A stretch of 64,000 bases of DNA from Diospyros lotus (lineage: Eukaryota; Streptophyta; Magnoliopsida; Ericales; Ebenaceae): contig NW_026267115.1 of NCBI RefSeq assembly GCF_014633365.1, forward strand, positions 294,501 through 358,500, in the 5' to 3' direction. Shown here piece by piece: positions 2,761-62,942 of the stretch. Position 1 is the stretch's first letter. The number at the start of each line of letters is the position of its first letter. Made by a program: the position numbers and the translations under genes. The notes below the pieces were generated by a model. The model had not been told where the DNA came from, made no database searches, and saw only the letters and a list, made by a program, of their open reading frames with translations.

Positions 2761-3452
2761 GGTGGATTGAAGTGCATCTACAACACTAGGGTTTGCAAGA
2801 AAGAAAAAAAAAAAAAAAAAGAAGCAACATTTTCAAGAAGATGATATCGGATAGTTTTTTCAATTCTTCAAAACATGATGGGTTTTGCCTAAATTAGGCC
2901 AAATCACAAGGGTGGTCAAAGCAATCTACTTAAAACAAAAGGCAAAGCCAGTTTCATTTTTGGTTTGTTAATTTTATAAGGTTGCATTTGAATAGAATCA
3001 TTAGACCCTAGCATTTGTCATTTGATATTTGAAATTTTAAATTCATTATTTCCATATATAATTGTTGGAAGCAATTGAATTTTGGTCTAAATTCATACTA
3101 GATTTGAAATAGAAGAATTTGAATTTAAATAAAATCCTTAGAGCCAAAAAAAATAACAATTTGAAATAACTTTTTTATAACTGTCATTTCGAGAGATGGA
3201 ATTCAAAATGCAATTATTTTAAATGATGAAATTTAAAATAAGATCATTTGGAATCTCATTATTCAAATGTAATATATGGAATATTATAGTATATTATTTC
3301 AAGATAAAACGAAAATCAATAAAAGAATAAAATTTTGACAATTAAATCAAGTAAAATTTGTAATTTTAATGGACATTATAGCCGTTATATGACCATAATT
3401 GGTAAGTTCAAACAAAAAGTCCTAAATTGGAAGAATCCTTATATTCGAGTTG

Positions 3453-3460
3453 TATAAATT
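3453..3460 (+). promoter_or_regulatory. TATA box of GRF copy 1
   Basis: TATAAATT sits 107 bases before the exon 1 ATG at 3567. The same TATAAAT element, in the context CTTG or GTTG followed by TATAAAT, lies 107-115 bases before every other first exon of the array, which supports its role. Confidence 0.6.
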
Positions 3461-3566
3461 CCCTACTAGATGCCCTCAAACTATGCCCTATTTCATACCC
3501 CCTTTTATTTCTTTCTCTTCCTTCCCTTATCTTCGAAGATTTGTTAACTATATAGATTTTGGGTCA

Positions 3567-6011
3567 ATGGATTTAGATAGCTCAATTGACCCATTCGATG
3601 CAGTCTGAATTTCCTAAGCCACTTCACAACGAAGGGCCACTGAGGTACAAAGCAACAGTGGATGTCAAGTTCAGATTGATGGCAGATTTTGGTCCAGAGC
3701 AAAGGATAATCGGAATTTCGAAGTAGCTGAAACTAATGATTCTAGTGCACAAATCCCTTTTGATAGTAATGCAGGTAACATAAAACATCTTCCCTCTCGA
3801 CAAAACATGATTTTTTAGGGTTTTTTTTTCTTAGTTTTGTCAAGAAATAAACTTCCTCTTTTATCTTCTCTGGATTTTATTTAGTTCTCCTTTAAAGATC
3901 TCAATTTTTTTGAATATTACTGATTAGTAATTTGACGTTTCAATAGATTGTGTTTGATATGTGATTGATTGATATATAATTGAAAAATGTATCTTTTACT
4001 GACAGAAAATCTTTTAATTTTGATTTCATAAATTTGAAATAATGTTGACAAAATGGGAAACATATAGATGATTGAAGCTCAACAAATCCCTTTGATGCAG
4101 GCTCTAGTTCTCAACCCGCTTCACAACCAAAGGCCACTGACTTAAAAAGTAATAGTGGATATCAGTTTCAGATTAAGGGGAGATCCAGGTCCAGAGCATA
4201 GATAGGACAATACAAGTTTCACAGTAGCTAAAACAGGCGATTCTAGCCCCCGTTGCAAAACACCAAAACATGGCGAACTCTCCTGATTCCAGCCCACAAG
4301 TCCCATTTGACAGTAATGAAGGTAACATAAAACATCTTACCACTCAACAAAACAAGATTTTTTTCTAGGGGTTTAATTATTTTGTCAACAAATAAACTTT
4401 CTTCTTTTTATCTCTTATGGGTTTAAATTAGGTATCATTTACAAATCTCAATTTGTTCTAGTATTATTGATTTATAATTTAATGTTTCATTTAGTTGTGG
4501 TTAATAAGTGATTTATTGGTTATTGAAAAATGTACGTTATGCTGATAAAAGAAAAAAAAAACTTTACTTTTGATTTCATCAATTTCAAATTATGTGGATA
4601 AAATGGGAAACATATTTAGGTCTATAAGATTAACAAATGAAAAATATATATATATATATATTCTCTTTTACCATTTCTTCATATTTATTTATTGCAGTTT
4701 TTTAATATGTTTCCCTCATTTTTAATCTATTTGCGTGTTGTTATTAAACATTCTTAGTAAAGCTTTGGTATTCTGACTCTCTTGTGTTTTGGGATTTTAT
4801 TTTTTGCATCATATGGTATATGGGTTCTAGTTTCATAAATGTTTTCACCAAACATTTATATTATTGCAAAAAAATATTTTTTAAATTAACTTTTTTGTTT
4901 GATAAGCACATTGGATTTGATATTTTTAACAAAACAATAACAAATTTTATCAAAACTAGGGCATGAGACTACGGGACTTACGCAAAGCAAACCCGCTAGT
5001 TGCACCAGCGAGTCTGTCTTGACCCGACTTTGGGCACATCTAATGCCCCTTAAGTAAAAATTACAAAACCAATACCAGTCACGTAAAAAGTAATAATACT
5101 AATTTAATAAAAAATTCAAAAATCGTAACCAATTTTCATTCTTTTTTTCAAAATCCATTATCAATTTAATTGGCATTGGTTTCTTTTAATACAATTCTTA
5201 TTTACAGAAAAAAAAAAAGTTGAATTATGATATTTTGTTTTGGTTTTCAAATGAAGTGGTAAGTGGTAATTTTCCACTGGGAGCATCGGGTGACAGTTCT
5301 CCTAAGCTTGATATGTGCCAGAAGAACGATGGGAAAAAATGGTGGTGCTCAAAACCTGCAATTCCAAACCAAAAATATTGCCAGAGGCATATATATAAGC
5401 GTCGCGGCAATTCGAGAAAGAATGTGGCAGGAGAAGGTAGTGAGGTCTCTAAATTTGATCAAGAGGAGGCAACATTCGTTGGTGGATCCTCATCCATATC
5501 GACACCTTCTGCTAGGGTTGCTACTACACCAAACCAGTCGATCAACTTCCCATCTGATGCTGAGAGCCCTGGTGTTGGAAGCCTTGTTAACAAGTAAATA
5601 TACCCATCTCGAATTTATATTTACCTGTACTTCCTTTAATTAATTTGTTTACTCTCTCACTATGCATTTCAAGATATTCATATATATGTAACATTATTGC
5701 TACCATGTTCATTGCCTACATAGTTCTAACCCTTTTTATGGTTTCCATCCTCCAGTCAAAACATTGATGAACCTATTCTGTCAAAGTTTGCATTAGAGGA
5801 AGACTCGGAGATGAATCTCAAAGATTATTTCCTTGACTTCAGTGACCTTGAATCCCAAGAACAATACTCGTTGCGCCATCTCTTTGACAACTGGCCAATG
5901 GAGCAGCCGAAGTATGCAGATTGGTCTAAACACTCGATGAACAATATTCCTACATCCTCATCGAATCGAACATCAGCCTCATCCTCATCCCAACAAGAGA
6001 AGCCTCTCTAG
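3567..6011 (+). pseudogene. type A GRF copy 1: WRC and C-terminal exons intact, N-terminus broken, QLQ lost
   Basis: This is a relic of a growth-regulating factor gene. Exon 1 (3567-3774) begins with MDLDSSIDPFDAV and hits a stop at 3606-3608. Exon 2 (4101-4321) also has an in-frame TAG. The QLQ exon found at this position in the other copies is absent from the 4322-5256 interval. Exon 4 (5257-5593) encodes an intact WRC finger, C-x9-C-x10-C-x2-H, with the canonical DGKKWxCS core and SRKNV arm, closer to textbook GRFs than the type B copies. The last exon (5756-6011) continues in frame (NQNIDEPILSKF) and ends with LRHLFDNWP, YADWSKHSM and a Ser-rich tail. Its acceptor is internal to the longer exon of the other copies. 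A WRC-only protein from a downstream start cannot be excluded, but the gene as a whole looks dead. Confidence 0.8.
5409..5429 (+). promoter_or_regulatory. degenerate miR396 target site, GRF copy 1
   Basis: The 21 bases at the end of the WRC core correspond to the conserved miR396 site of GRF mRNAs (CGTTCAAGAAAGCCTGTGGAA is not reproduced here in full; its centre GAGAAAG and 3' part TGTGG are kept). Relative to that site, changes fall at the miRNA seed (AA to CA near the 3' end), next to the usual bulge, and at the 5' edge. Pairing would be weaker than in copies 2-4. Confidence 0.5.
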
Positions 6012-9000
6012 CTAGGACTTGGGTCATTGGGAGAGGTCTTGAGGATGAGCTCTTCTTGAAATTCTAAAACATGAGCAGAACTGTGTTGGCTTTCTAATAA
6101 GAGTTGGTGAAGGAATGCAACAACTAACAAGAAGAAGCTCAATTAAATTGTGAACTTGGGGATGAGAGGGTGAACTTGGGAAGATGAAATGACAAAGCGC
6201 AACCCTGGTTTGTAGATGTTTTAGTCTATGTTATATGGTCAATGTTTCTATAAACGATTATAAGCAGTTGTTCCTCCCTCATGTGGGTCTAAATATTTAT
6301 GTATCTCAGTAAAGTGCAATGGAGTATGTGATGGTCCAATACTGTGATCTTACATGTGTTACTTTATCTATTTTCGTCTATCATCTTAATCTAGTCTTTA
6401 AATCCAACAAACTATGCCAGGTACAAGTTTTCAGTGAAATTTGATGTGGACATGCCCCAAAGATTCTAGTTAGATTAGAGTTTTTTTTTTTTTTTTTTTC
6501 TTGTTAGGGACATTTATTATTCTTAGTCTTGACACAATTTATACTTAGATCTCACATCTAATTTCAAAATATTAGTAATTAAATATGCAGAATTTATCAA
6601 ATTTCACCTTCCATTTCTGAGTTCAAATGCTTAATGAGTACGATGTCAACAATGAATAATAACTTGTATAGATGATTGCCCAAAAAATAAAAACAAAAAT
6701 AACATGCATAAAAAATAAAAACAACTTGTGTGAAGGAAACTCATAATTAATCCTTCTGAGAACTAGATAGGATCTGATACATAGTTTGTAAATATTTTTG
6801 TAACAATACATAGAGTTTTTCTTTTTCCTTTTACCTTTAGATATATTTATGCTTAATTTAACATAGAGATATCATGATAAATTGGCATCAGACCAACGTT
6901 GTGTGCACAGACAATCACGAGTTCTTCTTCCTCAGCCGATGCAAGGGCAACATATCTTCTTTGGTAGAAATTAATAGAGGTGTATCTTTCTTTGTTTAAC
7001 AACATTTTTGATCCATTCCCTAATTGAATCAAAGAAGGTATTGAACAATATATATCTAAAGATGAAAACCCTTCCCGTATCATATCTGACTATGTTTTAA
7101 AATCAATGTAAATAAATATATATATATATATATATATCCTAGCAGAAACCTATATTCAAAAACACCAAAAAAAGGTAAGGAAAGTTCTTCTTCTCCAAAC
7201 TTCCCTCTCAATTCTCTCTATAACAAACCCTCATTTAAGTTAGTGAAAACAAAAAATTGCAATGGCATCTTCACTTATATACATGTTCCAGATGAAATCT
7301 ATACTTAGCAAATGTGAAACTGGGGATGGGGTGGTTCGTTACAGTTTTTAAGATATCCATAACTTTAACCACAGTTTTATATCCTTAACAGTAATTGAAC
7401 AGTATGGATTTTAATAATTGCATCTGTAACTTATTATTTACATCTTTTTTTAAAATCTTCATTTTCTTAACTATTTTCAATTTCATTATTTATTCCAAAT
7501 TCACTAGACATTATTCTTCTAAATGATGCTTAGGAAAATTTACCTTTAGTGGCCTCGACTTTCCATCGAAACTCTTATGTTCAGTTTAGTTCATCATGCC
7601 AAGGTCTTTGGGAGTGCACTTGTTTTAACAAATTAAAGAGAGTTTATGTTATAACTCATATTAAGAAGTCTAAATTTTAAATCATTCTAAAATAACAAAT
7701 TTAAAGGAAAAAGATAAACTTTATGATGTCCTAGACAAAAATCTTCAGATATTTAGAGTAAATTTGTAAATCATACGTGAACATAAAAGCACCTATTTCT
7801 ATCAAAATAAAATAAAAGACTTTAAATAAATATTGAGTTTGTACAACGAATTTGACATATTTAATATATTTGATATCACCAAAGTAAAATCTACATTCTA
7901 GTGCATCATATAAAGACACATATAGCATCTATAAACGCATTCCACAAAAAATAACAAAACTTCCCAAAACCTATGCTTCAAGAATTTTTTTCCCCTTCGA
8001 CCACACTTGCCTCACCTAGAACATTTGAGTATTCTAAAAGATGAACCCAAGTTATGAGATGAATTTTCTAAGTGAAGAACCCCTAAAAATAAAGCATTCA
8101 TATAAAATGTGTGCATAAAAAAATATAAGTTTCTATTCCATGGTACCACTTGTGACTATATTAGCCTTATTCCAAGAGCTTTCTCAACCGGTGCTAGAAA
8201 TGCCTCTTTCAAGGTCCCCCACCACATTATGTTAGGCCTAACCAACAAAGAAAATGTAAGTACTCAACAATGCCAGTTGTGACAATATTGACCTTTTTCC
8301 AAGAGCTTTTTCTCATGGTGCTAGAAGCGCATTTTGGGAGGTCCCTAAGCATGTCACCTAAGGTCCAAACAGCATAGAGCAAAATAAGATGAACATACAT
8401 GATCATAGATGTAAATAAAAAGTCAAAACAAAGTACATTTTCAAAATTGATTTTTTCTGCAATATGAAAAGCCACGAAATAAGAGTTGTGGGTAAGAGAA
8501 CTTTGCCTTGGGGTCTTTTTGGAGAATATCTTGTTCGATTTTCTTAGCTTCCTAACCTCTCCTTAGTCAACTTAATTGTAAGTTTCTTCTAATTCTCTCT
8601 CTTCTTTCCTCCCTTCTCTATTCTTCTTTATTTTTTCTCAAGTGAGAGACTCTATCTCAATTTATAAGATCCTCGCCTCATCTTCCCAGTAAAGAATTCA
8701 ATTGATATGAGAAATTTGTGTTTTATTTTTTTATTTTTAAAACATTCATTTTTTTGTGAAATATTCCTATAAATACATGTGAAATGGAGAAATAGGAAAG
8801 GGGGTCAATGGGCCGGGTTGATGGGGGATGGCTTCCAAACCATCCCCAATGATGCAAGGGGGCTGCCTTGTGTTGGCTCGGGGAGCTTATTGTAGCTCAT
8901 TGCCGTAGGGTCCCTTTCTTGCAAATGCAAGGAACAGGGGCTAGCGGGCTGATTCAATTGCTATCCCACTCACCTCCTATATTATATATATATATATATA

Positions 9001-9786: not shown

Positions 9787-10500
9787 TAAAAACAAACCCT
9801 AATTTAAAAATTACATTCCAAACAAACATGATGTAGTCTAGGGTTATTGTGTTGTAAGGCGATTGCAACTGTGTGGTGTTCTTCGAATCTTGATTTGAGT
9901 TTTGATTTAGTATTTTTGTCCTTGCTCCCTCTAAAGAATCAAAATATATAGTCACTTCCATCTCCCTCATTCAACTCACAGTGCAATCGCCTCACAATGC
10001 AATTAACCCTAGATAACAAACATTTGGAATGTGATTTTGAGTGTAATTTTGAATTAGGGATTGATTAACCAACGACATCAAGACGACATATACTATCATT
10101 CAATAGTGTCAACCATAATGGTTAACATGGCCTAATTTCTAAAACTACAATGGTTTATTTGGCCCTTTTTAAGATACAATAGTCAATTTGACACTTTGAC
10201 TTTTTTATTACTTACATATGTCTTTATATCTATATGTTTGAAAATATCTTAAATTATATGTTTAAGTATATTTTTTTATAAAATTTATTTACTTATTTCA
10301 TTTTCATGATCTGAATGTATATTTATTTTATATGCTAAATATATTTTCATATTTTTAGTTGATATTTATATTTAAAAAATATCAAATATATTATGTAACA
10401 GAAGATACATTTTATCTAAAAAAATTTATAAATACACTTAGTTTAAAAGAGAACAGTGTCTTAGCAAAAAAAACCAAAAAGGAGAAATAGAATCATTACA
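9787..10500. other. distal flank of unit 1, no gene seen
   Basis: AT-rich non-coding sequence repeated at 38057-39538 (with a Cassandra insertion) and 49520-50363. It ends in the junction motif GCAAAAAGGAGAAATAG (10475-10490 region). A diverged copy of that motif also lies inside units 2-4 at the left edge of each type B cassette. Confidence 0.6.
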
Positions 10501-11080
10501 CCAAATTAGGCCAAATCCCCATGGTGGTCAAAGCAATCTACTTGAAACAAAAACCAAAGCCAGTTTCATTTTTGGTTTGTTCATTTTATAAGGTTACGTT
10601 TGAATAGAATCATTAGACCCTATCATTTGTCATTTGTCATTTGATCATATTTGAAATTCTAAATTCATTATTTCCATATATAATTGTTGGAAGCAATTGA
10701 ATTTTGGTCTAAATTCATACTAAATTTGAAATAGAAGAATTTACATTTGAATAAAATCACATGAGCCAAAAAATAAAAATAAAAAATTGAAACAACATCT
10801 TTATTATTGTCATTTCGAGAAATAGAATTCAAACTGCGATTATTTTAAATAATAGAATTTAAAATAAAATCATTTGAAATCTCAATATTCAAAAGTAATC
10901 TAAGGAATATTATAATATATTATTCAAGATAAAACAAAAGTCAATTAAAGAAGGAAATTTTGACAATTAAGTTAGGTGAAAATTTTAATTTTAATGGCCA
11001 GTATATACGTTATATAATCATATTTGGTAAGTTCAAATAAATGATCTTGAATTGGGATCACATCCCCTTTAGTCGACTTG

Positions 11081-11088
11081 TATAAATC
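11081..11088 (+). promoter_or_regulatory. TATA box, exon 1a of unit 2
   Basis: TATAAATC lies 121 bases before the ATG at 11202, in the same GACTTG context as units 3 and 4 (40100 and 50929). Confidence 0.55.
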
Positions 11089-11201
11089 CCCCCTACTACT
11101 TGCCCTCAAAGTATGCCCTCTTCGATTCCCCTATTTTATTTTCATCTTTCTCTTCCTTCCATTATCTTCACAGATTTGTTAAATATAATAGATTTTAGGT
11201 C

Positions 11202-12131
11202 ATGGGTTTAGATAACTCCTTTTATCCATTTGATGCAGCCTCTATTTCTCAAGCGACTTCACAACCAGAGGTTACTAATCTACAAAGCAACAATAGATAT
11301 CTGTTTCAAATTGATGGGAGATTTGAGTCCAGAGCAAAGGACAACATGAGTTTTAAAATAGCCAAAACTTGTGATTCTAGAGCTCCGATTACAATGCACC
11401 AAAACCTGGTCAACTCTTCTTACTCAAATGCACAAATTCCTTTTGATAGGAATGCAGGTAATGTGAAACATCTTTCCAATTAGCAAAATAAGAGATTTTT
11501 AGGGTTTTATTTAGTTTTGTCTTGAAATAAACTTTCTTTGTTTATCTTCTTTAGGTTTTATTTAGTTCTCTTTTATAGATGTTAATTTCTTTGAATTTCA
11601 CTGATTTGTAATTTCACCTTTCAATTTGTTGTGTTTGATATGTGATTGATTGATAATTGAAAAATGTATGTTATACAGATAAAAATATTTTAATTTTGAT
11701 TTCATTAATTTGAAATAAAGTGGATAAAATGGAAACATAGAGAGGACTGATGAAAAAAAATATTTTATTTCACTATTTATTGTTATATATTTATTGCATT
11801 TTTTAAATCTCTTTCTCTTATTTTACATCTATATGTGTTCCATTATAACTCAACTAGTTCATTCCGTACAGGCTCTAGTTCTCAACCTGCTTCAAAACCA
11901 AAGGCCACTGATATACAAAGCAATTGCGGGAATCAGATTCAAATTAACCAGAGATCTTCATTCAGAATAGAGGACAATCGAAGTTTCAAAGTAGCCAAAA
12001 CTGGTGATTCTAGAGCCCCTATCGCAATATATTTATTTTATATGAATATATATTTTTCTTGTTTTAGTTTATATCTGTATTTTAAAAAAATCTATATAAT
12101 ACATAACAGAAGATATATTTTCCTAAAATAA
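11202..12131 (+). pseudogene. truncated type A GRF 5' end, unit 2 (exons 1a and 2a)
   Basis: Exon 1a (11202-11457, 256 bases) starts MGLDNSFYPFDAASIS and ends at an AATGCAG/GTAATG donor in phase 1. Exon 2a starts at 11872 after TCCGTACAG and reads GSSSQPASKPKATDIQSN. Homology to copy 1 exon 2 stops near 12027, after DSRAPIA. The frame then runs into AT-rich sequence (YLFYMNIYF) and stops at 12131. No QLQ or WRC exon belongs to this piece before a new promoter appears. It could act as an alternative first exon spliced to the QLQ exon at 13596, because the phase matches, or give a protein of about 170 residues. Both ideas are untested, and I regard it as a gene fragment. Confidence 0.7.
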
Positions 12132-12422
12132 AATTTATAAATACATTTACTTTAAAAGAGAAATAGTTGTCTTAGCAAAAAAAGTAAAAAGGAGAAATAG
12201 TGAAAGCAAAAAAGAGGAGAGGCAGCCGATAATCCAAGGGTAAAATCCACAATATGGTATATTATGGTATATATATTATTTCAAGATAAAATGGCAATGA
12301 ATAAAATTGACAATTAAATCAAGCAAAATTTGTAATTTAATGGGTCTTATATTTGTTATATAATCATATTTGATAAGTTCAAACAAATAGTCCTAAATTG
12401 GGAGGTTCTTTTAATTGAGTTG

Positions 12423-12430
12423 TATAAATT
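12423..12430 (+). promoter_or_regulatory. TATA box of type B GRF, unit 2
   Basis: TATAAATT lies 120 bases upstream of the ATG at 12543. The unit 4 copy has the same element (52287-52294), but unit 3 has a changed base. Confidence 0.6.
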
Positions 12431-12542
12431 GCCCTGCTACTCGCTTTCAAACTATGCCTCTTTGATTTCCCTCTGTTATTTCTATCTTTCTATTCTGTCT
12501 ATTTCTTTTTGTAGATATGCTAATATAATAGATTTTGGATCA

Positions 12543-14776
12543 ATGGGTTTGGATAGCTCAACTAGTCCATTCGATGCAGCCTTTATTTCTCAAGTTGCTT
12601 CACAATTGGAGACTGTCGATGAACAAAGCAATAGTGAATATCCGTTTCAAATTGAGGGGAGATCTAGGTCCAAAGCAGAAGAAGACAATAGAAGTATTAA
12701 AATAGCCAAAACTGGTGATTCTGGAGCCTCGACTGCAATACACCAAAACCCAATCAACTCTATGTATGTCACACAAAGCCCCTTTGATAATAATACAGGT
12801 AATGTAAACATCTTCCCACTCAACAAAACAATAATTTTTTTAAGGGTTTTAATTACTTTTGTCAAGAAGTAAACTTTCTTCTTTTATCTTTTTGGGTTTT
12901 ATTTTATTCTCTTTTAATTAAAGATCTCAATATCTTTGAGTATTACTGATTTTTAATTTGATGTTTTAATTGCTTGCAATTGATATATATGTGATTGATT
13001 GATGATTGAAAAATGTATATTATATTGATAAAAAAAAGCTTTTAGTTTTGATTTCATCAATTTGACTAATAGGACTAACAAATGGGAAAAAAAATTTCTT
13101 TCACACTTTCTTCTTATATATTTATTATATTTTTTAATTTCTTTCCCTCGTTTTCCATCGATGTGTGTACCAATATATTCCTAGTAAAGCATTCTAGTAT
13201 TCTATCTCACTTGTGTTTTTAGATTTTATATTTTGCATCTAATTTCTAAATATCTTCAACATATACATTATTATCAAAAATCTCGAGTTTTTTTTGTCAA
13301 ATTAACATTTTTTTCATTTAAAATCCAACTAGCTTCAAATTTGATGTTTTTATTAAGATAGTATTGAATGTTATCCAAGTTAGAGGCAAGAGACTCGAAA
13401 GCCTTGCGCAAAGACAAACTCGCTAATTTCACTAGCGGTTTTTTCCTGATTGAAACTCAGATATTATCTGATACTATTTTAGTATAAAAAAAATTACAAA
13501 ATTGATACTAGTTGTATAAAAATTAAAATATTAATATTAATTTATTAAATAACTCAAAAACCTTTACCAATTTTCATTCTTATTTCACCTTTCAGCCTAT
13601 CATTGTGGAGGCATAAATGCTGCCATGGGAACTCCTAACATGATGGGAACTCCATGTCCATTTACTCGTGCTCAGTTGGTTGAGCTAGAGCAACAGATAA
13701 GGATATACAAGTGCATCAATGAAAATTCACCTATTCCATCTGATTTGCTCATGGCGCTAAGTGCTTCCCTCAACCCAAATCAATTCATTGGTTTTCCTAG
13801 ATCCGATGCTACCAATGCAGGTTTGGATTATTTTTCTTCATTGTGACTCTCCTCATTTTAGAATGACTATGGTTTCTCTTCAGCTTTAATCTCCCATGAA
13901 TGGTTTAATTATAGTTGATTTATGATATTTTGTTTAATTTGGTTTTCAAATGAAGTGGGAAGTAATAATTTTCAACTAGGAGCATCGGGTGACAATTCTC
14001 CTAAGCTTGATAGATGCCAGTGGACATATGAGAATAAATGGCGATGCTCAAAAACTGCAATTCCAAACAAAAAATATTGTGAAAGTCATATATATAAGCA
14101 TCGCCTCTACTCAGGAAAGCATGTGGAAGGAGAGACTATTAAGGTCTACGAATCTGCTCCAGAGGAGGCAGCTCTTGTTGGTGGATCTGCATATATATCG
14201 ACCCCTTGTGGTGGTGTTGCTACTGCCCAATATCAGTCCGTCAACTTCCCATCTGATGCTGAGGGACTTGCTGTAGGAATCTGCTTTAACAAGTAAGGAC
14301 CCTATACTTCCTTTCATTAGTCTACTCTCTCACTATCCACTTGAAGATATTCATATGTTCATCATTATTGCTAAAATATTAACTACATACATATTTCTAT
14401 CATAATACTTTTTCTAATTTTGATTTGTTTCCCGTTTAATGTATACATTAGAGTGAAAGATCCACCAGGCCACCTTGTCACATCTCCAGCCAATAGCATG
14501 GGTTTAGGGTTTCCATCCTCTAGTCAAAACTTTGACAAACCTCTTCTCTCAAAGTTTGCTGAGGATGACACTGACATGAATCTCAAGGATTATTTCAATG
14601 ACTTCAGTGACCTTGAATCCCAGGAGCGATGCTCTTTGCGCCATCTCTTTGAAAACTGGCCAGCAGAGCAACCCGAGTACGCAGATTGGTCTAATCTCTC
14701 CATGAAGAATATTCCTATAGGCTTATCAGATCAAACACCAGCCTCACCCTCATCACAACTAAAGAAGCTTATGTAG
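12543..14776 (+). CDS. GRF: growth-regulating factor (QLQ-WRC transcription factor), type B, unit 2
   Basis: Four exons join in phase: 12543-12798, 13596-13820, 13956-14292 and 14452-14776, giving 1143 bases and 380 residues. I chose the MGLDSS start because it is shared by all copies. The QLQ domain (about residues 106-141) has the Q-x3-L-x2-Q core and the FTRAQLVELEQQ and PIPSDLL blocks; in the family it binds GIF co-activators. The WRC domain has an intact C-x9-C-x10-C-x2-H finger (C181, C191, C202, H205) for DNA binding, but the basic arm is weaker (KHRLYSGKHVE in place of RxRSRK). The C-terminal part keeps FFD-like LRHLFENWP (335-343) and TQL-like DWSNLSM (351-357). It should act in the nucleus on growth genes. 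The first base of the QLQ exon makes Ala instead of Gly at the junction. This and the unit 3 gene are the best candidates for working genes here. Confidence 0.82.
13416..13441 (+). repeat. short intronic inverted repeat, unit 2
   Basis: AAACTCGCTA and TAGCGGTTT face each other across a short loop in the intron before the QLQ exon. Equivalent hairpins are at 4988-5013, 42653-42678 and 53224-53250. They are the most GC-rich part of these introns. Confidence 0.45.
14108..14128 (+). promoter_or_regulatory. miR396 target site (altered 5' side), unit 2 GRF
   Basis: The site encodes YSGKHVE just after the zinc finger. Its 3' two thirds (GGAAAGC, one bulged base, TGTGGAA) pair with miR396 as in canonical GRF sites, and the differences (TACTCA for CGTTCA) fall opposite the less critical miRNA 3' end. 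The same 21 bases are present in units 3 and 4. Confidence 0.6.
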
Positions 14777-16465
14777 TGGTTGGGCCATTGGGAAAGGCCT
14801 TGAAGATTAACTCTTGTAGGGATTCTCAAACGTTAAAACAATTTTGTGGGGTTTCTAAGCGTTGGTGAAGCATTGCAACAACTAAAAATAAGAAGGTCGA
14901 TCCAAATATCGAACTTGGGGATGAGAAAGTGATCATCTAGCGGAGGTAGGAAGACGAAGGTTAAACAAAGACCAAAGCGTAACAAGTTGTTTGGGACAGA
15001 GGTGATGTAGGCAGGTAATTGGTGGAATTTCAAACAATATATTATTTCTCTTTAGCCTAGTTTGCAGATGTCTTTTGTTTATACTGCATGGTCAATAATT
15101 CTATAAATGATGGTAAGCAGTTGTTTCCCCTTATGTGGGTCTACATACTCATTTTTACAATAAAGTGCAATTGGGTATGTAACGATACAGGACTGTGATC
15201 TTACTTGATACTTTTCCTACTTCCTTCTATCATCTTATTCTAGTCCTTAAATCAGATAAACTGTATACAGTCTGGTACATGAAATAAAGCTTGTGCTAGC
15301 CTTTTTCAACCCAAAGCTTCTTATGGATGGTATTCATTTGAAGCCATAAATTTGGGACGCGAGCCAAAGCTCAATCACTAATCGCCTTCAGTGTTTTGTT
15401 TTCTGCGATTTTTTGCATTTTTGCAGTTTATTAAGTGTTTTGGTCCAAATCCCACGTGTCTTTTTCTCGTAATGATGACCATCATTTGAAGGTCTCCTGT
15501 TACTCTTCTTGGAATTTGCTATCTATCACCAGGTTCAGCTAGTTTTATGGTTTCAACAAGAAGATGCTAAGGGCTCTGGCATAAAGATGCCGCGGGCTTT
15601 GTTTGTTCTCATTCTGTGTGGTTTGTCTTTTGATTTTTGTTGGTTGATTTCTTGCTTGTTTGGTTGGTTCAGTTTGTCGTAGCTAGGTATATGGCATTGT
15701 CACAGTTTTGCTCGAAAGACTATTGAACCTGAGCATAGCTTAGTGCAAGTCCCTTGCGGACTTGGCTTAATAGTAGACCTCAAATTTCAGTTCCTTCCTA
15801 GCAACACACAAGTTGTGTCCTAGTTTGTAGTTTTCTAATTTGGTCTCTTCGTGTCTTAGGCATTTGGTTTTTAGTAGGTGTCATGTCGTCGTATTGTATA
15901 CTCTCTAGAGTATTAGACTTGAGCTAGACTCTATGTAACTATGAAAGGTCCCCTCCCAGTGGATCTCCATATGTACGCATTCCAAACCTACCCTACCCTC
16001 AACAACCCCCCCCCTCCCCCAACCAAAAAAAAAAAAACAAATTATTGCTCCGACATAAACTTTTATGTTCTCCTTCTCTTTATTTTTTTTTCCCTTCTTT
16101 TTGTGGGCTAATAAGATTCCATTCATTCAAATAATAAAACAAAAACTTGAGAAAGCAAAACTGAAACCTTAGGAATTTGAACATCCAAAAGACTTAACTT
16201 TGTGTTCCAACTTAACTTTGACTTCAAATTGGAGTTATTACTTTTTCTATTTCATGTTCCTCCTTTGTGTTCCTTTTATGTTGTTTTGATCCTGTCGTGT
16301 ATGGATCTTGAGTATCTGTTTCTACTTATGTGAGTGTGTTCTCTAAGGTATGTCCTAGATTGTGTTCTGTACAAACATTTTAGTTCTATATATATATATA
16401 TATATATATCTCTTTTACTTAAAAAAAAATCATTAATCACCCCCAAGTACAGTGGATTTAACAAA
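14777..16465. other. 3' flank of type B GRF, no gene seen
   Basis: This is probably the 3' UTR followed by non-coding sequence, repeated at 44019-45690 and 54578-55912. It has a CACGTG G-box-like hexamer near 15453. A 65-codon open frame visible only in the unit 3 copy (44727-44924) is not kept in unit 2 and is probably chance. A C-rich and A-rich tract lies at 16007-16040 and a (TA)n tract at 16388-16410. Confidence 0.55.
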
Positions 16466-16617
16466 AACAATACTTGTTGCGCCATCTCTTTGACAACTGG
16501 CCAATGGAACAGCCTAAGTATGCAGATTGGTCTAAACACTCGATGAACAATATTCCTACATCCTCATTGAATCGAACGTCAACCTCATCCTCATCCCAGC
16601 AAGAGAAGCCTCTCTAG
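16466..16617 (+). pseudogene. orphan type A GRF C-terminal fragment, unit 2
   Basis: This piece matches the end of the last exon of copy 1 (5860-6011). It encodes LRHLFDNWPMEQPKYADWSK, ends in SSSSQQEKPL and a stop, and has no upstream exon. Homology begins abruptly at AACAATACT and continues into the type A 3' flank, so it marks the right breakpoint of the type B cassette. Confidence 0.8.
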
Positions 16618-17102
16618 CTAGCACTTATTGGGAGAGGTCTTGAGGATGAACTCTTCTTGAAATTCTAAAACATGAGCAGAACTGTGTTGGCTTTCTAATA
16701 AGAGTTGGTGAAGGAATGCAACAACTAACAACAAGAAGCTCAATTAAATTGTGAACTTGGGGATGAGAGAGTGAACTTAGGAAGATGAAATGACAAAGCG
16801 TAACCCTTGTTTGTAGATGTTTTTGTCTATGTTATATGGTCAATGTTTCTATAAATGATTATAAGCAGTTGTTTCTCCCTTATGTGGGTCTAAATATTTA
16901 TGTATCTCAATAAAGTGCAATTGCGGATATTATGGTCCAACATTGTGATCTTACTTGTGTTACTTTATCTATTTTCGTCTATCATCTTAATCTAGTCTTT
17001 AAATCCAACAAACTATGTCAGGTACAAGTTTTCAATATAATTTGATGCATGTGGACATGTCACAGATATTCTAGTTAGATTAGTGTTTTTTTATTTTATT
17101 TA

Positions 17103-41462: not shown

Positions 41463-41572
41463 TGCCCAACTAGCTTTCAAACTATGCCTCTTTGATTTCC
41501 TTCTGTTATTTCTATCCTTCTATTCTGTCTATTTCTTTTTATAGATATGTTAATATAATAGATTTTGGATCA

Positions 41573-44018: not shown

Positions 44019-45690
44019 TGGTTGGGCCATTGGGAAAGGCCTTGAAGATTAACTCTTGTAGGGATTCTCAAACGTTAAAACAATTTTGTGGGGTTTCTAA
44101 GCGTTGGTGAAGCATTGCAACAACTAAAAATAAGAAGGTCGATCCAAATTGCGAACTTGGGGATGAGAAAGTGATCATCTAGCGGAGGTAGGAAGACGAA
44201 GGTTAAACAAAGACCAAAGCGTAACAAGTTGTTTGGGACAGAGGTGATGTAAGCAGGTAATTGGTGGAATTTCAAACAATATATTATTTCTCTTTAGCCT
44301 AGTTTGCAGATGTCTTTTGTTTATACTGCATGGTCAATAATTCTATAAATGATGGTAAGCAGTTGTTTCCCCTTATGTGGGTCTACATACTCATTTTTAC
44401 AATAAACTGCAATTGGGTATGTAACGATACAGGACTGTGATCTTACTTGATACTTTTCCTACTTCCTTCTATCATCTTATTCTAGTCCTTAAATCAGATA
44501 AACTGTATACAGTCTGGTACATGAAATGAAGCTTGTGCTAGCCTTTTTCAACCCAAAGCTTCTTATGGATGGTATTCATTTGAAGCCATAAATTTGGGAC
44601 GCCAGCCAAAGCTCAATCACTAATCGCCTTCAGTGTTTTGTTTTCTGCGATTTTTTGCATTTTTGCAGTTTATTAAGTGTTTTGGTCCAAATCCCACGTG
44701 TCTTTTTCTCGTAATGATGACCATCATTGGAAGGTCTCCTGTTACTCTTCTTGGAATTTGCTATCTATCACCAGGTTCAGCTAGTTTTATGGTTTCAACA
44801 AGAAGATGCTAAGGGCTCTGGCATAAAGATGCCACGGGCTTTGTTTGTTCTCATTCTGTGTGGTTTGTCTTTTGATTTTTGTTGGTTGATTTCTTGCTTG
44901 TTTGGTTGGTTCAGTTTGTCGTAGCTAGGTATATGGCACTGTCGCAGTTTTGCTCGAAAGAGTATTGAACCTGAGCATAGCTTAGTGCAAGTCCCTTGCG
45001 AACTTGGCTTAATAGTAGACCTCAAATTTCAGTTCCTTCCTAGCAACACACAAGTTGTGTCCTAGTTTGTAGTTTTCTAATTTGGTCTCTTCGTGTCTTA
45101 GGCATTTGGTTTTTAGTAGGTGTCATGTCGTCGTATTGTATACTCTCTAGAGTATTAGACTTGAGCTAGACTCTATGTAACCATGAAAGGTCCCCTCCCA
45201 GTGGATCTCCATATGTACGTATTCCAAACCTACCCTACCCTCAACAACACCCCCCCACCCCCCAACCAAAAAAAAAAACAAATCATTGCTCCGACATAAA
45301 CTTTTATGTTCTCCTTCTCTTTATTTTTTTTTTCCCTTCTTTTTGTGGGCTAATAAGATTCCATTCATTCAAATAATAAAACAAAAACTTGAGAAAGCAA
45401 AACTGAAACCTTAGGAATTTGAACATCCAAAAGACTTAACTTTGTGTTCCAACTTAACTTTGACTTCAAATTGGAGTTATTACTTTTTCTATTTCATGTT
45501 CCTCCCTTTATGTTGTTTTGATCATGTCGTGTGTGGATCTTGAGTATCTGTTTCTGCTTATGTGAGTGTGTTCTCTAAGGTATGTCCTAGATTGTGTTTT
45601 GTACAAACATTTTAGTTATATATATATATATATCTCTCTTTTACTTAAAAAAAATCATTAATCACCCCCAAGTACAGTGGATTTAACAAA
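44019..45690. other. 3' flank of type B GRF, unit 3, no gene seen
   Basis: Closely matches 14777-16465. The 65-codon open frame at 44727-44924 depends on a base that differs in unit 2, so it is not supported. It ends with a (TA)n tract near 45618-45634 and the junction with the type A fragment. Confidence 0.55.
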
Positions 45691-45842
45691 AACAATACTT
45701 GTTGCGCCATCTCTTTGACAACTGGCCAATGGAGTAGCCCAAGTATGCAGATTGGTCTAAACACTCGATGAACAATATTCCCACATCCTCATTGAATCGA
45801 ACGTCAACCTCATCCTCATCCCAGCAAGAGAAGCCTCTCTAG
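45691..45842 (+). pseudogene. orphan type A GRF C-terminal fragment, unit 3
   Basis: Same fragment as at 16466-16617, encoding LLRHLFDNWPM, but here GAG is followed by TAG, an extra in-frame stop. It has no upstream exon. Confidence 0.8.
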
Positions 45843-49500: not shown

Positions 49501-50928
49501 CACCATGGACAACATTTAATACCCTTAATAGGGTTAACAATACCCCCCAATTAAACCCTAATTTAAAAATTACATTCCAAACAAACATGATGCAATCTAG
49601 GGTTATTGTTGTAAGGCGATTGAAGTTGCGCGGTATTCTTCGAATCTTGATTTAGTCTTTTTGTCCTTGCTCCTTCTAAAGAATCAAAATAGTCACTCTT
49701 ATCTCCCTCATGCTCCCTCATTCAACTCACAATGCAATTAACCCTTGATCACAAACATTTGGAATGTGGATGATTTTGAGTGTACTTTTGAATTACGAAT
49801 TGATTAGGGAAATTTTAACACTTTTAATGGAATTAAAATATAGTTCAACGACATCGAGACAACATATATATACCATAATGGCTAAAGTGACTCAAATTTA
49901 AAAATACAATGATTTATTTGACCATTTTTAAATTAAGTAAAGTAGTGAATTTGACGTCATCATCCAATATATAGTCAACCATAATGGTTAACATGGCCTA
50001 ATTTCCAAAACTACAATTGTTTATTTGGCCCTTTTTAAGATACAATAGTCAATTTGACACTTCGACTTTTTTATTACTTACATATGTCTTTATATGTATA
50101 TGTTTGAAAATATCTTTAATTATATGTTTAAGTATATTTTTTATAAAATTATTTACTTATTTCTTTTTCATGATCTGAATGTATATTTATTTTATATGCT
50201 AAATATATTTTCATATTTTTAGTTGATATTTATATTTTAAAAATATCAAATATATTATGTAACAGAAGATATATTTTATCTAAAAAAATTTATAAATACA
50301 TTTAGTTTAAAAGAGAACAGTGTCTTAGCAAAAAAAGCAAAAAGGAGAAATAGAATCATTAGACCAAATTAGGCCAAATCACCGGGGTGGTCAAAGCAAT
50401 ATACTTGAAACAAAAACCAAAGCTAGTTTCATTTTTGGTTTGTTCATTTTATAAGGTTACGTTTGAATAGAATCATTAGACCCTATCATTTGTCATTTGA
50501 TCATATTTGAAATTCTAAATTCATTATTTCCATATATAATTGTTGGAAGCAATTGAATTTTGGTCTAAATTCATACTAAATTTGAAATAGAAGAATTTTC
50601 ATTAGAATAAAATCATATGAGCCAAAAAAAAAAAAAATTGAAACAACATCTTTATTACTGTCATTTCGAGAGATAGAATTCAAACTGCGATTATTTTAAA
50701 TAATAGAATTTAAAATAAAATCATTTGAAATCTCAATATTCAAATGTAATTTATAGAATATTATAATATATTATTCAAGATAAAACAAAAGTCAATTAAA
50801 GAAGGAAATTTTGAAAATTAAGTCAGGCGAAATTTGTAATTTTAATGACCATTATATACGTTATATAATAATATTTGGTAAGTTCAAATAAATGGTCTTG
50901 AATTGGGACATCTCCTTTAATCGACTTG

Positions 50929-50936
50929 TATAAATC
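50929..50936 (+). promoter_or_regulatory. TATA box, exon 1a of unit 4
   Basis: TATAAATC lies 121 bases before the ATG at 51050. Confidence 0.55.
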
Positions 50937-51049
50937 CCCCCTACTGGTTGCCCTCAAAGTATGCCCTCTTCGATTCCCCTCTTTTATAGTCATCTTTCTC
51001 TTCCTTCCATTATCTTCACAAATTTGTTAACTATAATAGATTTTGGGTC

Positions 51050-51996
51050 ATGGGTTTAGATAGCTCCATTTATCCATTCGATTCAACCTCTATTTCTCAT
51101 GCCACTTCACAACCAAAGGCTACTAATCTACAGAGCAACAATAGATATCTGTTTCAAATTGATGGGAGATTTGAGTCAAGAGCAAAGGACAATATGAGTT
51201 TTAAAGTAGCCAAAACTTGTGATTCTAGAGCCCCGATTACAATACACCAAAACCTGGTCAACTCTTCTTACTCAAATGCACAAATCCCTTTTGATAGTAA
51301 TGCGGGTAATGTGAAACATCTTTCCACTCAACAAAATAAGAGTTTTTTAGGGTTTTATTTAGTTTTGTCTTGAAATAAACTTTCTTCTTTTATCTTCTTT
51401 AGGTTTTATTTAGTTCTCTTTTATAGATGTTAATTTCTTTGAATTTCACTGATTTGTAATTTCACCTTTCAATTTGTTGTGTTTGATATGTGATTGATTG
51501 ATAATTGAAAAATGTATGTTATACATATAAAAATATTTTAATTTTGATTTCATTAAATTGAAATAAAGTGGATAAACTGGAAACATATAGAGGACTGATA
51601 GGACTAACAAATGAAAAAAAAATATTTTATTTCACAATTTATTGTTATATATATTTATTGAATTTTTTAAAATCTCTTTCCCTCATTTTCCATCTATATG
51701 TGTACCATTATAACTCAACAAGTTCATTCCGTTCAGGCTCTAGTTCTCAGACTGCTTCACAACCAAAGGCCACTGATATACAAAGCAACAGTGGGAATCA
51801 GTTTCAAATTAACCAGAGATCTTCGTTTAGAACAGAGGACAATCGAAGTTTCAAAGTAGCCAAAACGAGTGATTCTATAGCCCCCATTGCAATATATTTA
51901 TTTTATATGAATATATATTTTTCTTGTTTTAGTTTATATCTGTATTTTAAAAAAATATATATATTATATAAAAGAAGATATTTTTTCCTAAAATAA
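51050..51996 (+). pseudogene. truncated type A GRF 5' end, unit 4 (exons 1a and 2a)
   Basis: Exon 1a (51050-51305) begins MGLDSSIYPFDSTS and ends at AATGCGG/GTAATG, where the other copies have AATGCAG, so the last AG before the donor is changed but GT is kept. Exon 2a starts at 51737 (GSSSQTASQPKATDIQSN), loses homology near 51892 and stops at 51996. It is the same kind of fragment as in units 2 and 3. Confidence 0.7.
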
Positions 51997-52286
51997 AATT
52001 TATAAATACACGTACTTTAAAAGAGAAATAGTTGTCTTAGCAAAAAAGTAAAAAGGAGAAATAGTGAAAGCAAAAAAGAGGAGAGGCAGCAGATAATCCA
52101 AGGGTAAAATGCACAATATGGTATATTATGGTATATATATTATTTCAAGATAAAATGGAAATGAATAAAATTGACAATTAAATCAAGCAAAATTTGTAAT
52201 TTAATGGGTCTTATATTTGTTATATAATCATATTGGATAAGTTCAAACAACTAGTCCTAAATTGGGAGGTTCTTTTAATTGAGTTG

Positions 52287-52294
52287 TATAAATT
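52287..52294 (+). promoter_or_regulatory. TATA box of type B GRF, unit 4
   Basis: TATAAATT lies 116 bases before the ATG at 52403, as in unit 2. Confidence 0.6.
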
Positions 52295-52402
52295 GCCCTG
52301 TTACTCGCCTTCAAACTATGCCTCTTTGATTTCCCTCTTTTATTTCTATCTTTCTATTCTGTCTATTCTTTTTGTAGATATGTTAATATAGATTTTGGAT
52401 CA

Positions 52403-54577
52403 ATGGGTTTGGATAGCTCAACTAGTCCATTCGATGTAGCCTTTATTTCTCAGGTTGCTTCACAATTGGAGACCGTCGATGTACGAAACAACAGTGAATA
52501 TCCGTTTCAGATTGAGGGGAGATCTAGGTCCAAAGTAGAAGAAGACAATAGAAGTTTTAAAATAGTCAGGACTGGTGATTCTAGAGCCTCGATTGCAATA
52601 CACCAAAACCCAATCAACTCTATGTATGTCACACAAAGCCCCTTTGATAAAAATACAGGTAATGTAAGCATCTTCCCACTCAACAAAACAATAATTTTTT
52701 TAAGGGTTTTAATTACTTTTGTCAAGAAGTAAACTTTCTTCTTTACTTTTGTCAATAAGTAAACAATAATTTTTTAAGGGTTTTAATTACTTTTGATAAA
52801 AAAAACCTTTTAGTTTTGATTTCATCAATTTGAAAGGATGTGGATAACATGGCAGAACATATAGAGGACTAATAGGACAAACAAATGGAAAAAATTATTT
52901 TCTTTCACTCTTTCTTCTTACATATTCATTATATATATTTTTTAATTTCCTTCCCTTATTTTCCATCTATGTATGTACCATTATGTTCCTAGTAAAGCAT
53001 GCTAGTATTCTATCTCACTTGTGTTTTTAGATCTTACATTTTCTATCTAATTTTTAAATATTAACAATATATACATTATTGCCAAAAATCTCAGGTTTTT
53101 TTAAACAAATTAATATTTTTTTAATTTAGAACCCAACTTGCTTCAAATTTGATATTTTTATTAAGATAGTATTGAATGTTATCCAAGCTAGAGCCAAGAG
53201 ACTCGCAAGTCTTGTACAAAGGCAAACTCGCTAATTTCACTAGCAGGTTTTTCTTCACTTAAACTTAGATATTATTTGATACTAATTTAGTTAAAAAAAA
53301 TTACAAAACTGATACTAGTTTTATAAAAATTAAAAATATTAATATTAATTTATTAAATAACTCAGAAACATTTACCAATTTTCATTCTTATTCACCTTTC
53401 AGGCTATCATTGTGGAGGCATAAATGCTGCCATGGGAACTCCTAACATGATGGGAACTCCATGTCCATTTACTCGTGCTCAGTTGGTTGAGCTAGAGCAA
53501 CAGATAAAGATATATAAGTGCATCAATGAAAATTCACCTATTCCATCCGATTTGCTCATGGCGCTAAGTGCTTCCCTCAACCCAAATCAATTAATTGGTT
53601 TTCCTAGATCCGATGCTACCAATGCAGGTTTGGATTATTTTTCTTCCTTGTGACTCCCCTCATTTTAGAATGACTATGGTTTCTCTTCAGCTTTAATCTC
53701 CCATGCATGGTTTAATTAGTTGATTTATGATATTTTGTTTTGGTTTTCAAATGAAGTGGGAAGCAATAATTTTCAACTAGGAGCATCGGGTGACAGTTCT
53801 CCTACGCTTGATAGATGCCAGTGGGCATATGAGAATAAATGGCGATGCTCAAAAACTGCAATTCCAAACAAAAAATATTGTGAAAGTCATATATATAAGC
53901 ATCGCCTCTACTCAGGAAAGCATGTGGAAGGAGAGGCTATTAAGGTCTACGAATCTGCTCCAGAGGAGGCAGCTCATGTTGGTGGATCTGCATCTATATC
54001 GACCCCTTGTGGTGGTGTTGCCACTGCCCAATATCAGTCCATCAACTTCCCATCTGATGCTGAGGGCCTTGGTGTAGGAATCTAAGTTAACAAGTAAGGA
54101 CCCTATACTTCCTTTCATTAGTCTACTCTCTCACTATCCACTTCAAGATATTCATATGTTCATCATTATTGCTAACATGTAAACTACATACATATTTCTA
54201 ACATAATGCTTTTTCTCATTTTTATTTGTTTCCCGTTTAATGTATGCATTAGAGTGAAAGATCCACCAGGCCACCTTGTCACATCTCCCGCCACTACCAT
54301 GGGTTTAGGGTTTCCATCCTCTAGTCAAAACTTTGACAAACCAATTCTCTCAAAGTTTGCTGAGAATGACACTGACATGAATCTCAAGGATTATTTCAAT
54401 GACTTCAGTGACCTTGAATCCCAGGAGCGATGCTCTTTGCGCCATCTCTTTGAAAACTGGCCAGCAGAGCAACCCGAGTACGCAGATTGGTCTAGTCTCT
54501 CCATGAAGAATATTCCTATAGGCTTATCAGATCAAACACCAGCCTCACCCTCATCCCAACAAAAGAAGTTTATGTAG
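52403..54577 (+). pseudogene. type B GRF, unit 4, with premature stop after WRC
   Basis: Exons 52403-52658, 53403-53627, 53757-54093 and 54253-54577 have the same lengths and splice sites as the unit 2 and 3 genes. QLQ and the WRC finger C-x9-C-x10-C-x2-H are complete. In the WRC exon the codon after GVGI is TAA (54083-54085) where unit 3 has TGC, four codons before the donor. The product would be 269 residues and lack the 111-residue C-terminal part with LRHLFENWP and DWSSLSM, although that exon itself is still open. The stop lies upstream of the last junction but only about 8 bases away, so nonsense-mediated decay is uncertain. A truncated GIF- and DNA-binding protein is possible. I class it as a pseudogene because of the stop. 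Confidence 0.75.
53909..53929 (+). promoter_or_regulatory. miR396 target site (altered 5' side), unit 4 GRF
   Basis: Identical to the site in units 2 and 3, so any miR396 control would extend to the truncated copy. Confidence 0.6.
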
Positions 54578-55912
54578 TGGTTCGGCCATTGGGAAAGGCC
54601 TTGAACATTAACTCTTGTAGGGATTCTCAAACGTAAAAACAATTTTTTGGGGTTTCTAAGAAGGTCGATCCAAATTGCGAACTTGGGGATGAGAAAGTGA
54701 TCATCTAGAGGAGGTAGGAAGATGAAGGTTAAACAAAGACCAAAGCGTAACATGTTTGGGACAAAGGTGATGTAAGCAGGTAATTGGTGGAATTTCAAAC
54801 AATATATTATTTCTCTTTAGCCTAGTTTGCAGATGTCTTTTGTTTATACTGCATGGTCAATAATTCTATAAATGATGGTAAGCAGTTGTTTCCCCTTATG
54901 TGGGTCTACGTACTCATTTTTACAATAAACTGCAATTGGGTATGTAACGATACAGGACTGTGATCTTACTTGATATATACTTTTCCTACTTCCTTCTGTC
55001 ATCTTATTCTAGTCTTTAAATCAGATAAACTGTATACAGTCTGGTACATGAAATGAAGCTTGTGCTAACCTTTATCAACCCAAAGCTTCTTATGGATGGT
55101 ATTCATTTGAAGCCATAAATTTGGGACGCGAGCCAAAGCTCAATCACTAATCGCCTTCAGTGTTTTGTTTTCTGCGATTTTTTGTATTTTTGCAGTTTAT
55201 TAAGTGTTTTGGTCCAAATCCCACGTGTCTTTTTCTCGTAATGATGACCATCATTTGAAGGTCTCATGTTACTCTTCTTGGAATTTGCTATCTATCACCA
55301 GGTTCAGCTAGTTTATTTTATGGCTCCAACAAGAAGATGCTAAGGGCTCTGGCATAAAGATGCCACGGGCTTTGTTTGTTCTCATTCTCTGTGGTTTGTC
55401 TTTTGATTTTTGTTGGTTGATTTCGTGCTTGTGTGGTTGGTTCAGTTTGTCGTAGCTAGGTATATGGCATTGTCACAGTTTTGCTCGAAAGAGTATTGAA
55501 CCTGAGCACAGCTTAGTGCAAGTCCCTTGCGGACTTGGCTTAATAGTAGACCTCAAATTTCAGTTCCTTCCTAGCAACACACAAGCTGTGTCTTAGTTTG
55601 TAGTTTTCTAATTTGGTCTCTTCGTGTCTTAGGCATTTGGTTTTTAGTAGGTGTCATGTCGTCGTATTGTATACTCTCTAGAGTTTTAGACTTGAGCTAG
55701 ACTCTATGTAACTATGAAAGGTCCCCTCCCAGTGGATCTCCATATGTACGTATTCCAAACCTACCCTACCCTCAACACCCCCCCCCCCCCCCCCCCCCCC
55801 CCCCCACCCTCCCGCCCAACCAAAAAAAAAAAAAAAAAAATATCTCCGATATAGACTTTTATGTTCTCCTTCTCTTTATTTTTTTTTTGGGCTAATAAGA
55901 TTCCATTCATTC
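54578..55912. other. 3' flank of type B GRF, unit 4, no gene seen
   Basis: Matches 14777-16120, with a small deletion near 54660 (the GCGTTGGTGAAGC stretch is missing). It contains a run of 28 C at 55778-55805, where unit 2 has shorter mixed C tracts, and ends at the insertion of element B. Confidence 0.55.
55778..55805 (+). repeat. poly-C tract (28 C)
   Basis: An uninterrupted run of 28 C followed by a poly-A tract (about 55822-55839). Units 2 and 3 have interrupted C tracts here. Confidence 0.9.
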
Positions 55913-56224: not shown

Positions 56225-56286
<62 letters not shown>

Positions 56287-56604: not shown

Positions 56605-56605
56605 G

Positions 56606-62437: not shown

Positions 62438-62487
<50 letters not shown>

Positions 62488-62803
62488 ATGCTATACAGTT
62501 CGTCCTCCCTTTTGTGTTCTCTGATTTCTTGTTTTGATCGAATGTAAGCTCTTAATCTGTTAGTGATTCTGAGCGTTTTTGTATTGAAAATCAAGGTTGT
62601 TTTGGGTTTTGATTTCATTGTAATCGGATTGAATATATAAATGGAGTGAGCTCTTCTCACCGGAGCTCAAGTGGACGTAGCCCCTGTTTTGGGGTGAACC
62701 ACTATAAATCTTCTGCCTCTTGTTTCGTTTATGTCTTTATTTCATCAGAGTCGATTTTGACAGTGTGTGTGTGGAGATTTGCTATCTCTGTTTGTTTGTA
62801 ACA
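62109..62803 (+). repeat. 3' LTR of element B
   Basis: Begins TGTTATATTTTATGTG and ends TTTGTAACA. It has the GGGCTTCCCTTTGGGCGCC stretch that is shortened in the 5' LTR, and a (TC)n tract of about 21 repeats (62441-62483). Confidence 0.92.
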
Positions 62804-62917
62804 CATTCAAATAATAAAACAAAAACTTGAGAAAGCAAAAATGAAACCTTAGGAACTTGAACATCCAAAAAGATTTAGCTTTCATTAATCACCCCCAAGT
62901 ACAGTGGATTTAACAAA

Positions 62918-62942
62918 AACAATACTCGTTGCGCCATCTCTG
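62918..62942 (+). pseudogene. orphan type A GRF C-terminal fragment, unit 4 (cut)
   Basis: The 25 bases AACAATACTCGTTGCGCC plus ATCTCTG match the start of the fragments at 16466 and 45691, then stop abruptly at the LTR of element C. Confidence 0.7.

Follow-up and report, generated by a model that had tools for sequence, protein, structure and literature searches.

A tandem array of altered growth-regulating factor derivatives in Diospyros lotus: two plausibly coding copies or a decaying cluster

Introduction

Are neighbouring copies of a growth-regulating factor (GRF) gene extra doses of an ordinary regulator, the remains of a dead one, or derivatives that have left the constraints of the family? 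The question is raised by a 64,000-nucleotide stretch of Diospyros lotus DNA (contig NW_026267115.1, positions 294,501 to 358,500; hereafter the window), in which four GRF-derived units follow one another. We propose that these are fast-evolving tandem GRF derivatives specific to one lineage, probably Diospyros or a close relative, and that two of the copies are plausibly coding, an account that the sequence makes reasonably probable and that stays well short of certainty. In the available excerpts of published surveys, the main route of GRF expansion is duplication of whole genomes or of segments. Because that expansion is mostly non-local, an altered local array offers a natural test of GRF copies escaping constraint.

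Organisation of the array

Comparison of the window with itself (blastn) gave four homologous starts on one strand, at 2891, 10503, 39541 and 50366. Unit 1, of type A, is 82.9-84.5% identical to units 2-4, of type B, across its first 0.86 kb, and identity among units 2-4 is 93.6-96.6% in blocks of 1.1-5.9 kb. The GRF-derived homology spans 2891 to 62944, its right edge; these limits hold within the window, since neither 1-2895 nor the sequence past 62944 matches anything elsewhere in it (blastn, E 1e-3). Neighbouring homologous copies on the same strand at one locus constitute a tandem array. The coordinates of its parts are collected in Table 1.

The three B units share one four-exon model, with exons of 256, 225, 337 and 325 nucleotides and junctions in phase, amounting to 1143 nucleotides including the stop, or 380 codons. 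In units 2 and 3 the frame is open along its whole length, and unit 4 carries an in-frame TAA close to the 3' end of exon 3, the WRC exon. In every B unit two first exons are usable (exons 1a and 1c, both of 256 nucleotides and equal phase), and a third first-exon copy is broken. In unit 1, exon 1 contains stops, the WRC exon (337 nucleotides, as in type B) and the last exon are open, and the search for a QLQ exon found no QLQ match. Downstream of every B unit lies a remnant of the unit-1-type last exon (16462, 45687 and 62882). The initial annotation had described much of this, and its outline was recovered throughout: four units in one orientation, limits of 2889..62942, identical exon lengths in units 2-4, two open type B genes and a truncated one, and several fragments, which prove to be extra exon-1 copies in each unit and unit-1-type exon-4 remnants.

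Duplicated haplotypes or a mis-joined repeat could in principle imitate such an array. An assembly artefact of this kind is very improbable in our judgement: introns diverge by 5.2-8.6% between units, insertions and remnants differ among them, the copia elements in between show a divergence of their own between long terminal repeats (LTRs; Kimura two-parameter distance, K2P, 0.038-0.082), and unit 1 differs by ~16-17%. On sequence grounds, the array is real. The closest pair among units 2-4 shifts along the alignment, units 2 and 3 being closest in three of five blocks, units 3 and 4 in exons 2-4, and units 2 and 4 narrowly sharing most sites in the upstream block, a pattern that would be compatible with gene conversion or with unequal crossing-over. 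It can be hypothesised that the locus began as an old A/B tandem pair, and that a block of B gene, A remnant and spacer would later have been amplified to three copies.

The array members are altered GRFs

Unit 2 encodes a QLQ domain (PF08880, E=1.1e-11, 44.6 bits against a cut-off of 23.8) followed by a WRC domain (PF08879, E=9.7e-9, 35.2 bits against 28.6), both above the curated Pfam cut-offs, and the WRC domain of unit 1 scores higher still (PF08879, E=2.6e-13, 49.9 bits against 28.6). The QLQ exon of unit 3 is matched at the protein level by those of unit 2 (98.6%) and unit 4 (95.9%); the WRC exons of units 3 and 4, outside the Pfam scan, are 92.9% identical to each other's or to that of unit 2. 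The three cysteines, the histidine and the W of the WRC domain are retained in the array copies (alignment). The window was also scanned with Rfam (gathering thresholds) and for tRNAs, with no hit.

The comparison with canonical proteins required a query of its own, because our homologue searches score a protein only if it has short exact words in common with the array. With a GRF1-type query, 2885 of 7987 scored candidates passed; from the best 120 of these, 11 were used for counting motifs and 12 for a tree. Relative to the 11 canonical GRFs, unit 3 keeps 19 of 42 invariant WRC residues and loses 23, and of the 24 QLQ invariants 15 are kept and nine changed; unit 1 keeps 21 and loses 21 of the 42 WRC invariants. 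Like canonical GRF1-type proteins (for example P0004, Vitis riparia growth-regulating factor 1-like, and P0109, Camellia sinensis), the array has QLQ before WRC, the Cys3His spacing, the exon-1 K(V/I)AKT motif, the SLRHxxxxWP motif and a miR396-type site in the WRC exon. Unlike them, it has duplicated first exons, a tandem arrangement and no TQL/GGPL tail, and the B protein has 380 residues against ~560-620. The open frames stop near the canonical TQL region, and a GPLG-like relic can be read past the stop in a different frame. TQL and GGPL are named as C-terminal GRF motifs in excerpts of a survey (PMC10795294) in which GRF groups differ in their C-termini and membership needs only QLQ and WRC; we therefore do not take the missing tail to exclude the array from the family.

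A phylogeny of the type B proteins, suggested with the initial annotation, was computed for 18 proteins. The six array-type proteins form one clade (100/100) on a very long branch, in a tree where two rows are less than half filled and the GRF clades are sampled as GRF1-type only. A placement near GRF1/2 is suggested by the resemblance of the exon-1 motif, within that same sampling. Judged by these features, the array members are altered GRFs, not ordinary ones.

This bears on the suggestion, made at the outset, that the array could alter GRF dosage. Functional canonical copies adding to the dose would agree with QLQ and WRC domains that both exceed the Pfam cut-offs. The changed invariants in both domains of unit 3, the missing C-terminal part and the long branch speak for altered proteins rather than an extra dose; the dosage reading is weakened accordingly, and we give it very little credence.

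Relatives and the acceptor within the WRC exon

A search with a single sequence returned one of 2120 candidates at E<=1e-3, the D. lotus protein LOC127799840 (P0001). A profile search returned three of 6079 at E<=10, adding two short proteins that match B-type exons 3 and 4, each on a 1886-base ENA contig; in both searches, scoring was confined to proteins with short exact words in common. LOC127799840 is the closest full-length relative recovered and is identical to unit 3 at 284 of 326 aligned residues; the window does not encode it letter for letter. The lineage-specific expansion considered in the initial annotation is plausible on this evidence, the closest relatives recovered by word-sharing searches being this one D. 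lotus protein and the two contig proteins.

The exon joins of LOC127799840 are those of the B units with one exception: its QLQ exon is annotated as joined to an acceptor within the WRC exon, so that the protein has QLQ and lacks WRC, in a model that we take as annotation and not as proof of transcription. The acceptor, CTACTCAG/GAAAGC (the stroke marks the junction), recurs in frame in all three B units, where it lies inside the miR396-type site. Annotation and sequence together point to a possible WRC-skipping splice at the acceptor of the B genes. Between LOC127799840 and unit 3, three of 75 residues differ in the QLQ exon and 38 of 251 elsewhere (P=0.009).

A miR396-type site in the B units

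Canonical GRFs carry a miR396 site in the WRC exon. In units 2-4 that exon contains a site with predicted pairing at -24.9 kcal/mol with a bulge (-24.7 in one overlapping tile), identical in all three B copies. Of 6397 plus-strand tiles of 35 bases, the six best all belong to these sites; the following tile reaches -19.6, and unit 1 only -19.0. Folds of miR396a with a canonical site gave -29.2 and with a perfect site -35.1, which puts the B sites below the canonical one in strength. The junction produced by skipping WRC would still pair at -23.3. It may be surmised from this pairing that B transcripts could be cleaved under miR396.

Constraint or decay

The main rival to our account, and a serious one, is a decaying pseudogene cluster, in which a GRF copy released from constraint multiplied in tandem and no unit yields a functional protein today, the frames of units 2 and 3 being still open because the copies are young. 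Stops in units 1 and 4, the QLQ exon missing from unit 1, the heavily altered WRC, the early frame end with GPLG-like relics beyond it in another frame, and retroelements in and between units are all what such a cluster would present.

The exons, however, are free of insertions and deletions among the copies: no indel occurs per 1399 exon bases between unit pairs, against 16, 16 and 20 events per 2168, 2106 and 2118 intron bases in the three pairs (P=3.5e-4, 2.9e-4 and 3.9e-5). With all regions taken together, exon substitution rates are about half the intron rates. In the first-exon block alone, the difference holds for indels (P=0.034, 0.031 and 0.009) and gives P=0.018, 0.063 and 0.007 for substitutions. 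The ratio of nonsynonymous to synonymous rates (dN/dS) over all exons is 0.41 between units 2 and 3 (neutral P=0.04) and 0.50 between units 2 and 4 (P=0.048), and pairs with unit 2 range over 0.38-0.63 for the sets of exons 2-4 and with exon 1c. Between unit 1 and the B units, the WRC exon shows 68-74 substitutions and no gap, and the comparisons with units 2 and 3 are gap-free and stop-free despite 73-74 substitutions. Intron ratios of indels to substitutions (0.09-0.14) would predict ~6-10 indels there by simple arithmetic, a figure that AT-rich introns may inflate. The miR396-type site preserved in three of three B copies and the annotated gene model of the D. lotus relative also sit poorly with simple decay.

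Several results weigh against coding copies. The exon 2-4 block taken alone shows no significant difference in substitutions (P=0.063, 0.46 and 0.65) and falls below significance for indels (P=0.061, 0.060 and 0.245), so that the low divergence of the exons may be partly regional; between units 3 and 4 the exons of this block even change faster than the introns. The dN/dS of that pair is 0.75 over all exons (neutral P=0.41), 1.05 for exons 2-4, and 1.11 (NG86) to 1.27 (YN00) with exon 1c only, and neutrality stands in each case. Neutral evolution is likewise not rejected between unit 1 and the B units in exon 3 (0.61-0.76, P=0.14-0.40) or exon 4 (0.43-0.45, P=0.08-0.12), nor between exons 1a and 1c (0.58-0.72, P=0.27-0.49). 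To these are added the WRC invariants lost from unit 3 and a structure prediction of its WRC exon with a mean predicted local distance difference test (pLDDT) of 46.7, ~57-65 in the WRC part, which was of low confidence and left unused; a PDB sequence search matched no solved structure to unit 3 or to the canonical P0004. Weighing both sides, we consider that the array genes were probably once under coding constraint, of which a weak and uneven form is left. A wholly decayed cluster is a real possibility, though one to which we incline less than to two plausibly coding copies.

What the B proteins might do

If the type B genes are expressed, their retained QLQ would bind GIF coactivators; excerpts of a survey name the SNH domain of GIFs as the binding partner of QLQ (PMC10795294). 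Since the WRC is rewritten and the TQL/GGPL tail missing, DNA targeting would be changed or lost. The genes would be under miR396 control through the retained site, and the acceptor within it could excise WRC to leave a QLQ-only product. Reasoning from these retained and lost parts, GIF binding may be expected of the B-type QLQ, and any activity of the B proteins is likely to be that of altered GIF partners controlled by miR396. They would then be a natural modulator of the GRF-GIF-miR396 system with separable domains. A bolder proposal is that they are GRF-derived antagonists, short miR396-regulated proteins that retain the GIF-binding QLQ, have a rewritten WRC and can lose it altogether by way of an acceptor that arose within the miR396 site, and which tune growth or flower development by sequestering GIF and titrating miR396; we regard this as speculative and rather unlikely. 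An mRNA-miRNA network of Diospyros oleifera includes GRF6 among its female-active targets (PMC10688080). Sex-linkage in Diospyros was weighed as a further reading and set aside, positional data being lacking.

Tandem GRF genes in other plants

The initial annotation held GRF genes to be usually dispersed and a local array to be unusual. Dispersal agrees with excerpts of several surveys: two tandem pairs only, in soybean, among 29 genomes (PMC10795294), two soybean pairs among 15 species (PMC8919827), and none reported in the passages available for sweet orange, strawberry and Arabidopsis (PMC10770916, PMC8468544). For kiwifruit, another Ericales genus, whole-genome duplication is described (PMC9269249, in part). 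Tandem GRFs are known, however: five neighbouring tandem GRFs, MsGRF19-MsGRF23, lie on alfalfa chr7.4 (PMC9445573), and a tandem pair each is reported from barley and indica rice (PMC10102486) and from poplar and rice (PMC5121280), again as far as the excerpts go. GRF tandem duplication is uncommon but already known.

Compared by description, the alfalfa cluster is local and similar in size to the present array, but all 27 alfalfa GRFs have QLQ and WRC according to the abstract, whereas the members here are degenerate and accompanied by remnants. Soybean, barley, rice and poplar likewise show local duplication, in pairs rather than as four units with fragments. Two of the surveys cover genes with both QLQ and WRC (PMC10795294, PMC9445573, as excerpted), which may leave degenerate arrays under-reported. 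No GRF tandem cluster of persimmon and no paper on the present array appeared among the literature matches listed, and neither 'GRF' nor 'growth-regulating' occurs in the main text of the genome paper on D. lotus or of that on D. deyangensis.

Table 1. Coordinates of the array units, exons, predicted sites and copia elements in the window
Feature	Position	Strand	Remarks and basis
Unit 1 (type A)	2891..6497	+	GRF-derived, no QLQ exon, exon-1 stops; self-blastn, translation
Unit 1 exon-1 copy	3567..3776	+	in-frame stops; translation
Unit 1 second exon-1-like copy	4076..4323	+	broken; self-blastn
Unit 1 WRC exon	5257..5593	+	open, WWC variant, 337 nucleotides; Pfam WRC 2.6e-13, translation
Unit 1 last exon	5756..6011	+	open, SLRHLFDNWP motif; translation
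Unit 2 (type B)	10095..16020	+	open gene; self-blastn, translation
Unit 2 exon 1a	11202..11457	+	translation
Unit 2 exon-1 copy (E1b)	11872..12029	+	broken; limits by eye
Unit 2 exon 1c	12543..12798	+	alternative first exon; translation
Unit 2 QLQ exon	13596..13820	+	Pfam PF08880, translation
Unit 2 WRC exon	13956..14292	+	divergent, Cys3His retained; Pfam PF08879, translation
Unit 2 miR396-type site	14108..14128	+	in-frame acceptor CAG/G at 14114/14115
Unit 2 last exon	14452..14776	+	including stop; translation
Exon-4 remnant, 3' of unit 2	16462..17101	+	unit-1 type; 92.6% to unit 1
Outer copia LTR retrotransposon	22971-38048		LTR divergence 0.082 (K2P)
Nested copia	24818-33827	-	inside 22971-38048; LTR divergence 0.038 (K2P)
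Unit 3 (type B)	39065..45263	+	open gene; self-blastn, translation
Unit 3 exon 1a	40221..40476	+	translation
Unit 3 exon 1c	41573..41828	+	translation
Unit 3 QLQ exon	42841..43065	+	translation
Unit 3 WRC exon	43198..43534	+	translation
Unit 3 miR396-type site	43350..43370	+	in-frame acceptor at 43356/43357
Unit 3 last exon	43694..44018	+	including stop; translation
Exon-4 remnant, 3' of unit 3	45687..46327	+	unit-1 type; self-blastn
Unit 4 (type B)	49884..55794	+	truncated by exon-3 TAA; self-blastn, translation
Unit 4 exon 1a	51050..51305	+	translation
Unit 4 exon 1c	52403..52658	+	translation
Unit 4 QLQ exon	53403..53627	+	translation
Unit 4 WRC exon	53757..54093	+	in-frame TAA near 3' end; translation
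Unit 4 miR396-type site	53909..53929	+	in-frame acceptor at 53915/53916
Unit 4 last exon	54253..54577	+	translation
Third copia	55913-62803		parts unit 4 from its unit-1-type remnant; LTR divergence 0.047 (K2P)
Remnant at right edge of array	62882..62944	+	unit-1 type, after copia insertion; 96.8% to 16430-16492 and 45655-45717

Transposable elements and other repeats

Three copia-type elements with LTR pairs lie in or between the units. The third is flanked by the five-base target-site duplication CATTC; for the nested element a five-base duplication can be read if the LTR end is shifted by one base, and for the outer one none is evident at the printed ends. Unit 3 has an insertion of ~645 bases (38420-39064) that is bounded by TG...CA, contains 225-base repeats and resembles a solo element or a small one of LTR type; an inverted relative of this insertion lies within the third copia element (57320-58428). 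The region 21100-22820 is an AT-rich array of repeated TTTAGCGACGGG...CCCGTCGCTAAA-like motifs, which we take to resemble the subterminal repeats of DNA transposons. The spacer after unit 3 contains a perfect 48-base tandem duplication (48108-48204), and the 48-base segment is single-copy in the corresponding spacers that follow units 1 and 2.

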